Shown here: positions 15,094 to 62,374 of the stretch, in pieces
Numbering within the stretch: position 1 is the stretch's first letter
Layout of the letters: each line of letters opens with the position of its first letter
From: Acidobacteriota bacterium
Lineage (GTDB): Bacteria; Acidobacteriota; Holophagae; Holophagales; Holophagaceae
Length of the DNA stretch: 64,000 bases
Direction of reading: 5' to 3'
Assembly: GCA_016192145.1 (NCBI GenBank)
Contig: JACPUT010000002.1
Location: forward strand, 434,001 to 498,000
The notes under the pieces: model-generated
The model's input: the letters and a program-made list of their open reading frames with translations, nothing else
The model's database searches: none
What the model was told of the DNA's origin: nothing
Position numbers and translations under genes: made by a program

Positions 15094-15168
15094 TGGTAGG
15101 GCCAACGGGGTTCGAACCCGTGCTGCCGCCGTGAAAGGGCGGTGTCCTAACCACTAGACGATGGCCCC
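15094..15168 (-). tRNA. tRNA-Glu (anticodon TTC)
   Basis: 75-nt cloverleaf on the minus strand. Acceptor GGGGCCA pairs with TGGCCCT, the D-arm region is TCGTCTAGTGGTTAGGA, the anticodon arm CCGCC-CTTTCAC-GGCGG gives anticodon TTC, and the T-arm is ACGGG-TTCGAAC-CCCGT. The 3' CCA is encoded. It follows tRNA-Lys by 12 bp and is probably co-transcribed with it. Confidence 0.95.
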
Positions 15169-15180
15169 AGGGTGTTGCGG

Positions 15181-15255
15181 TGGTGGGCCCAGCGGGATTC
15201 GAACCCGCGACCAACGGCTTAAAAGGCCGCTGCTCTACCGCTGAGCTATAGGCCC
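15181..15255 (-). tRNA. tRNA-Lys (anticodon TTT)
   Basis: 75-nt cloverleaf on the minus strand. The 5' end is GGGCCTATAGCTCAGCGGT, the anticodon loop CTTTTAA gives TTT, the T-arm is GCGGG-TTCGAAT-CCCGC and the 3' end is CCACCA with CCA encoded. It is the first gene of a two-tRNA unit. Confidence 0.95.
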
Positions 15256-34630: not shown

Positions 34631-35138
34631 GCCTGCGGCAGGCTGGAGGCTGGAGGCTGGAGTGGCGAGGGGGACGTCAGGAAATGAGGTTGCGGATCAG
34701 CCCGTTCAGTACTTTGGATACCTCGATGGCCTGATTGGGCAGGTCTTCATCAGGGGGCAGGAACCCCAGGCGGACGGCCACGGAGAGCTGGTACTCAACT
34801 TCCCTGGCAGAAGCATGGGCGATATCCAGGAATCTCAGGTAGTCGGCTTCCGTGCGGCGTGCGCACCCTTCGACGATATTGGAGGCGGTGGAGAGGCTTG
34901 ATCGGCGAAGTTGATTGCTCAGTCCAAAGCGCTCCTCTGAGGGGAAGGTCTGGGTCGCACGATAGACCGCCAGCACCAGCTCATCGGCCAAAGCGAATGC
35001 CTTCAGCTTGGTGTGATCCCTCATGATGCCTCCCCATTCCACTGAATGAGAGCGGAAGGATCGTGTGGGTCGCACTCATCCTCCGGTCTCCGGTCTCCAG
35101 TCTCCAGTCTCCAGCCTCCAGCCTCCAGCCTCCAGCCT
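34631..35138. mobile_element. Element A: heptamer inverted repeats enclosing an S23/IVP gene
   Basis: Left arm 34631-34662 contains three GCTGGAG heptamers after GCCTGCGGCAG. Right arm 35081-35138 contains eight heptamers on the plus strand: CTCCGGT twice, CTCCAGT twice, CTCCAGC four times. The arms are inverted copies and can pair. Between them, with 14 bp on one side and 56 bp on the other, lies a single four-helix-bundle gene. A 64-bp version without gene is at 62311-62374. The layout equals an IVS of 23S rRNA, a hairpin carrying an S23 ORF, but here it is intergenic. Confidence 0.65.
34677..35024 (-). CDS. Four-helix bundle protein, S23/23S rRNA intervening-sequence (IVP) family
   Basis: A 115-residue helical protein of the family first found encoded inside 23S rRNA intervening sequences. 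Family features: N-terminal KLKAFALADELVLAVYRATQ, the FPSEERFGLSNQLRRSS core, STASNIVEGCAR, and YLRFLDIAHASAREVEYQLS. These proteins form pentameric four-helix bundles; a related fold (Avd) assists diversity-generating retroelements, but no reverse transcriptase or variable repeat is nearby. ATG at 35024 has GGGGAGG upstream. The gene is enclosed by heptamer inverted repeats (34631-35138), which suggests mobility. The function of the free-standing form is unknown. Confidence 0.9.
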   Translation of the reverse strand: MRDHTKLKAFALADELVLAVYRATQTFPSEERFGLSNQLRRSSLSTASNIVEGCARRTEADYLRFLDIAHASAREVEYQLSVAVRLGFLPPDEDLPNQAIEVSKVLNGLIRNLIS

Positions 35139-35144
35139 GAATCC

Positions 35145-42365: not shown

Positions 42366-42462
42366 TGGCTCTGGGCTCTAGGCTCTCGGCTCTTGCTGGG
42401 TACGGAATTGTGGTCGGCCCTTCGCGTTCTCGAAATCAGCAAGAGCCGAGAGCCCAGAGCCA
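42366..42462. repeat. Tandem-word hairpin element E (GGCTCT words)
   Basis: Left arm 42366-42398 holds four heptamers GGCTCTN (N = G, A, C, T); right arm 42437-42462 is the inverted copy with three (G, C, T). Both arms end in the same GCTG/CAGC. The 38-bp loop has no gene. It lies between the convergent pilD and M28 peptidase genes. Confidence 0.8.
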
Positions 42463-62233: not shown

Positions 62234-62310
62234 GGGGACTCCAAACGGGTGCGGGGGAGGGCGGGGTTCCTTGGAACCCATCATCTTATCAGCCCTCCGG
62301 GGAGCCTAGA

Positions 62311-62374
62311 GGCCGCAGGCTGGAGGCTGGAAGTCGGGAACTGCCTCCGGTCTCCAGCCTCCAGCCTGGCGGCC
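62311..62374. mobile_element. Element B: empty heptamer hairpin, same family as element A
   Basis: Left arm 62311-62332 (GGCCGCAGGCTGGAGGCTGG) and right arm 62345-62374 (CTCCGGTCTCCAGCCTCCAG then CCTGGCGGCC) are inverted repeats built from the CTCCAGC heptamer and the CTCCGGT variant. The loop is about 12 bp and contains no gene. Words, variants and flanks agree with element A at 34631-35138, so it looks like the form lacking cargo. Confidence 0.7.

Follow-up and report, generated by a model that had tools for sequence, protein, structure and literature searches.

The 64,000-nucleotide stretch of Acidobacteriota DNA analysed here (the window) carries a single S23/IVP gene flanked on both sides by tandem heptamers that form inverted arms, and two gene-less heptamer elements further along (Table 1). 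A sequence-only reading had described this gene between arms of three and eight heptamers with gaps of 14 and 56 bp, a layout confirmed by coordinates, complementarity, TRF and profile searches. The arms are 100% complementary over a 24/24 nt stretch, and TRF assigned them a period of 7 with 3.3 and 8.4 copies. The 15-mer GGCTGGAGGCTGGAG occurs 44 times in the host genome compared to 0 times for the reversed control, and period 7 is the outstanding tandem period of that genome, with 46 arrays in 864 kb versus 0 after local triplet shuffling; the arm repeats are thus far beyond chance. According to the ORF list and profile searches, S23 is the sole coding content of the unit, and neither a transposase nor a recombinase was recognised in it. 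No Rfam family was found at the elements, and Rfam matches within the window were limited to two tRNA genes (15097-15168 and 15184-15255, minus strand). The same reading had called the unit IVS-like, a label that fails in the strict sense because the unit does not lie in 23S rRNA; its neighbours are the peptidase and permease genes.

Table 1 Positions of the S23 unit, its parts and the gene-less heptamer elements in the window
Feature	Position	Strand	Description
Whole S23 unit	34639..35139	-	Autonomous-type element, flanked by M16 peptidase gene and ABC-2 permease gene
Left arm	34639..34662	+	Three AGGCTGG heptamers, family A (AGRCYGG); sequence CAGGCTGGAGGCTGGAGGCTGGAG
S23/IVP gene	34677..35024	-	115 aa four-helix bundle; ATG at 35024, in-frame GTG at 35075 as alternative start
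Leader, right arm to gene	35025..35080	-	Contains one half of the shared core (sense GATGAGTGCGACCCACACGA), with TGGGTCG at 35066-35072
Right arm	35081..35139	-	Eight CTCCRGY heptamers, inverted relative to left arm, upstream of gene
Gene-less element, heptamer family C (RGGCTYT)	42366..42462	.	Core bounded by TGCTG..CAGCA
Short gene-less element, family A	62310..62367	.	Heptamer as in the window S23 unit

Structures of S23/IVP ("four helix bundle protein"), a widely annotated family, have been solved, and to our knowledge its function is not known. Judged by its profile scores, the window protein is a clear member of PF05635 (E 9e-30; 103.5 bits, cut-off 33.8), and it also matches TIGR02436 (E 4e-32; 110.7 bits, cut-off 24). 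Its AF2 model is a four-helix bundle (pLDDT 97) that resembles PDB 2GSC (TM 0.93), an entry with 5 chains, as well as 2RLD (TM about 0.8) and Avd of diversity-generating retroelements (4DWL, 8UB7 and 8UBE; TM about 0.75-0.8); the Avd profile NF033474 scored far under its cut-off. Invariant residues of S23 include H4, Y21, E31, Q38, R40, R41, N49, E52, R56, S72 and E75. No catalytic domain or motif was recognised in S23 by profile and structure comparison. The window protein is not basic (pI 6.1), and pI exceeds 8 in 66% of the S23 set. The X. campestris S23 protein XCC0516 was solved as a five-chain assembly (PMC4990558), and the same paper, citing Lin 2006, describes S23 as a pentameric ring.

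Heptamer families and S23 genes in the host genome and across phyla

The host genome encodes a second PF05635 protein, 46% identical to that of the window, and its gene (C7:65906-66169) likewise lies between inverted heptamers, here of the type (A/G)GTCCTT. Three heptamer families were distinguished in this genome: A (AGRCYGG), which forms the arms of the window gene, B (RGTCCTT), which forms those of the second gene, and C (RGGCTYT). Both S23 genes have matching gene-less pairs of their own heptamer, about 60-165 bp long like the gene-less elements in general. Paired arrays are almost always convergent (41 convergent, 1 divergent, 2 same-strand), and the two pairs in the sampled host DNA that enclose more than 300 bp each surround an S23 gene. 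In addition, many elements of families B and C and some of family A share a common core, GCTGA..CCGACCCA..loop..TGGGTCGG..CAGC; all copies of CGACCCA-N4-30-TGGGTCG in 864 kb lie within elements (11/11), compared to 0-1 for permuted motifs. In both S23 units the 5' arm is also followed by half of this core, a match that is clearer in the second. There, the 20 nt after the arm are matched at 15 or more of 20 positions in 16 of 39 gene-less elements versus 16 of 2000 random 110-mers; for the window unit, the corresponding counts are 3 of 39 elements and 2 of 2000 random stretches. With their shared arms and internal sequence, the gene-less elements look like non-autonomous (MITE-like) relatives of the S23 unit.

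Within the 864 kb sampled, family C outnumbers the others, and no S23 gene with family C arms was found in the 98%-complete host assembly; the driver of this family may have been lost or left unassembled. Several heptamer elements sit directly after stop codons. A family A element lies in frame inside the RluD gene (L029, about 1430-1560), where it accounts for about 28 extra residues between conserved blocks (36 residues versus 8 in E. coli RluD). A solo four-unit array was also seen in frame in a methylmalonyl-CoA mutase/GTPase fusion gene (L023, around 1500), adding DLQPPASSLQP-like residues.

For comparison across genomes, S23 loci were gathered blind to arms, yielding 158 non-redundant genes from many phyla, which were scored as armed if an inverted repeat between their 300-bp flanks reached at least 16 (at least 14 in a separate gammaproteobacterial set). 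Strong inverted arms were present at 77 of the 158 genes versus 0 of 360 random intervals of the same loci and 4 of 474 swapped controls, in which the downstream flank came from another element (Fisher about 1e-47). Direct-orientation repeats were found at 15 of the 158 genes, and arms are still visible by eye at some sub-threshold genes. The gammaproteobacterial set gave arms at 18/27 S23 genes compared to 0/81. 

The arm repeat unit is mostly 7 nt long, with 6, 8 or 9 nt in some clades. In genome G005 (L056, L061, L066-L071), about ten S23 genes are flanked by hexamer arrays of the CGGCCA type; the unit length differs by S23 clade. Across phyla, arm k-mers correlated with S23 protein distance (Mantel r -0.43; permutation mean 0, sd 0.037), and the correlation was unchanged under GC-stratified permutation; some of it could stem from arms and gene being inherited together. 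Of 94 armed units, 80 have an upstream arm rich in G on the sense strand. All seven genomes with six or more AGNCTGN triple arrays are S23-positive, compared to 74 of 149 overall, and random 20-kb pieces contained 34 period-7 arrays in 400 kb from S23-positive genomes versus 0 in 284 kb from S23-negative ones, the latter mostly from the host's own family. Among 369 gammaproteobacterial genomes, G565 is the sole one with GGGAATC triple arrays, and its S23 gene, although frameshifted, lies between GGGAATC arms; a gene-less palindrome of this genome retains the first bases after the arm, GTTCAAGC (L356 versus L340). The arms also occur away from any S23 gene, in the gene-less relatives.

Filled and empty sites

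At the window site, the S23 gene of G007, from another genus, stands in the same synteny with decayed arms, which partly bears out an objection foreseen in the sequence-only reading, namely a syntenic gene lacking the repeats, in this one case. In G002, also from another genus than the host, the site is vacant, with the flanking genes about 47 bp apart. This is the sole empty-site comparison for the window copy itself, and finer resolution came from cyanobacterial plasmids. The locus of G001 at C7 ~245.2 kb of the host was rejected as an empty site, as a solo right arm remains there. In the same-genus G001, the assembly is interrupted on either side of the orthologous S23 site (ends of G001:C100 and G001:C91), perhaps owing to the repeats.

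Six sites in the cyanobacterial plasmids are either filled by an S23 unit or cleanly empty, with flanks 85-98% identical, and a seventh varies in the same way for a gene-less unit. At site 1, the unit is found in Trichormus and Scytonema plasmids and is absent in those of Aulosira, Nostoc linckia and Microchaete, with flanks about 97% identical; with slashes marking the borders, the filled site reads ..AAAAAGTAAT/AAATCAGAATTC..unit..TTCTTT/GTAATTAAC.. and the empty site ..AAAAAGTAATTAAC... Site 2 is occupied in three Nostoc plasmids and empty in five relatives. In one of these relatives, another S23 unit, with arms of the AAAAGGG type, separates the following two genes (site 3). Within this set, five plasmids contain a gene-less unit with AGTCAGG arms that four others lack (site 4). 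Site 5 is a type III-B CRISPR module, in which an S23 unit splits cmr2 from cmr3 on a plasmid of Picosynechococcus PCC 7003 (L416 1396-1845) and is absent in PCC 7002. At site 6, an Aulosira plasmid carries a unit that its homologues lack, and at site 7 a unit separates the beta from the alpha gene of ribonucleotide reductase on the Nostoc edaphicum plasmid pNe_5 (L418 1386-1880) and is absent in Calothrix NIES-4105.

Comparing loci with and without the unit, as had been suggested for finding its borders, placed these at the outer arm ends at all seven sites, except for about 35 bp of one-sided extra sequence at site 3 and short replaced stretches at sites 4-7, which make the borders there less exact. 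The target duplication varies from 0 to 8 bp: site 1 shows 5-8 bp, site 2 has 5 bp in a single one of its three copies, site 3 has 3 bp, and the remaining sites show small replacements. Arms included, the units of sites 1, 2 and 6 share 78-82% identity over 416-419 bp in unrelated flanks, and in L415 a gene-less element interrupts an S23 gene. These comparisons show that the stretch from arm to arm comes or goes as a whole, single sites being compatible with gain or with precise loss. The filled and empty sites, the recurrence at unrelated sites and the gene-less insertions in an S23 gene and in RluD together show an arm-bounded mobile unit. The claim that they form one mobile intergenic unit was thereby borne out, with units across phyla and clean empty sites.

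Proposed recognition of the arms and alternative explanations

An in-register identity test at the variable heptamer positions found no closer agreement between the left and right arms than between shuffled partners, so that selection for arm base pairing was not seen and a base-paired hairpin seems not to be what is kept. The conserved properties are the heptamer consensus, its phase and the convergent orientation, as would suit a protein that recognises each repeat. From these features, the fold and the reverse transcriptase-free genome, we propose that the arms are recognised by the S23 pentamer, which would recruit host functions. The S23 unit is probably a small transposable element made of two inverted tandem-heptamer arms and one S23 gene, whose pentameric product would recognise the arms. 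In this model, the homopentamer would bind tandem heptamers with one unit per repeat and in a fixed outside-to-inside orientation, and binding would mark its own element and the gene-less relatives for movement. Because the unit encodes no known nuclease, transposase or reverse transcriptase, S23 might act as a recognition factor specific to its element and rely on host enzymes of replication, repair or recombination. Points that speak against this reading are the inconstant target duplication, the lack of a recognised catalytic domain in S23, the absence of an S23 gene for family C, the decayed arms of the syntenic gene in G007 and the non-basic window protein. The idea that the protein acts on its own hairpin is supported in one part, since arm type tracks protein type as expected if S23 acts on its own arms, and weakened in the other, as base pairing is seemingly not under selection.

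S23 could alternatively be a passenger or maintenance gene within MITE-like heptamer palindromes that an unrelated host enzyme moves. Most elements being gene-less, family C having no S23 gene in the host genome and S23 lacking a catalytic motif all agree with such a role, but long arm pairs in the host genome are filled by S23 genes only, arm type tracks S23 type across phyla, and period-7 arrays are confined to the S23-positive samples (the S23-negative DNA being mostly of one family), which makes it unlikely. We consider quite unlikely an RNA-level element in the manner of the IVS, with a transcript folding via its arms, RNase III cutting, S23 binding the hairpin RNA and mobility through an RNA intermediate. 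The protein family and the arm-gene-arm layout are those of the Coxiella IVS, which has a terminal stem of 28 bp (PMC4990558), the S23 fold resembles Avd, and S23-bearing Acidobacteriota genomes show a mild excess of reverse-transcriptase genes (31/47 versus 43/102, p 0.008; raw counts, genome size uncontrolled). Against it, arm complementarity is not kept in register, and no PF00078 match was found in the host genome or in 43 of 74 S23-bearing genomes of the phylum sample; a reverse transcriptase acting in cis was rejected because the host genome has no such match. That the arrays are ordinary simple repeats or transcription terminators next to S23 by coincidence is scarcely credible: heptameric repeats are known to be abundant in some bacteria (PMC4692102 and PMC4679880) and some elements follow stop codons, but the random-interval, swapped-partner, S23-negative and core-motif controls contradict it, as do the clean arm-bounded presence and absence and the insertions inside coding sequence.

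Returning to arm recognition by S23, the heptamer-armed unit is apparently a widespread, undescribed kind of small mobile DNA unit, a cross-phylum element with arms matching its protein and with gene-less relatives. It links known but unexplained heptameric repeats to a protein family of no known function, gives both a testable role and revives the old question of how the 23S rRNA intervening sequences spread; as S23 is small, arm binding and movement are directly accessible to experiment. Whether it amounts to a new class of transposable elements without transposase or reverse transcriptase, in which a pentameric S23 reads inverted heptamer arms (6-9 nt by clade) and mobilises its own unit along with the gene-less families that match it in many phyla, we regard as evenly balanced. 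If true, this would account for the heptameric repeats of Xanthomonas and Nostoc and suggest that the 23S rRNA IVS are rRNA-dwelling members; should IVS prove to be nested in the heptamer-armed family, the claim to newness would be weaker.

Comparison with known systems

MITEs and REP/REPIN-RAYT systems combine an autonomous-like copy with many short, mostly intergenic, non-autonomous palindromes that have the same ends. S23 units resemble this layout in their coding copy and short gene-less palindromes with the same ends, and differ in having no RAYT/Y1 or DDE transposase, heptamer ends of variable number and an inconstant target duplication.

The S23-encoding 23S rRNA IVS of Leptospira, Coxiella and Brucella share the protein family and the single ORF between complementary terminal arms, as well as sporadic presence and horizontal spread, and a mobility role for the IVS ORF was already suggested by earlier authors (PMC4990558). 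In contrast to the heptamer-armed units, which sit between protein genes, IVS occupy helices of the rRNA, and RNase III cuts them out of the transcript; the heptamer-armed units further stand apart by tandem-heptamer arms whose type follows the protein, and by gene-less relatives.

GGGAATC heptamers of Xanthomonas and heptameric repeats of Nostoc and other cyanobacteria (STRRs) are covered in the available part of PMC4692102, which reports that the Xanthomonas heptamers are often arranged in inverted pairs that converge (70 in Xcc and 75 in Xac) and describes them as quadruplex-forming simple repeats, that part mentioning no gene or mobile unit. The same GGGAATC heptamer forms the arms around the G565 S23 gene. 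No link between S23 genes and heptamer arms was found in the literature, which is weak evidence given the thin coverage of subscription journals. Avd has a related four-helix-bundle fold (TM about 0.77), a relation noted in PMC10053308, and it works with a reverse transcriptase, of which there is none in the host genome and none adjoining the window unit. The S23 unit is not an IVS, not a classical transposon and not a diversity-generating retroelement, and works like an autonomous element with MITE-like relatives.
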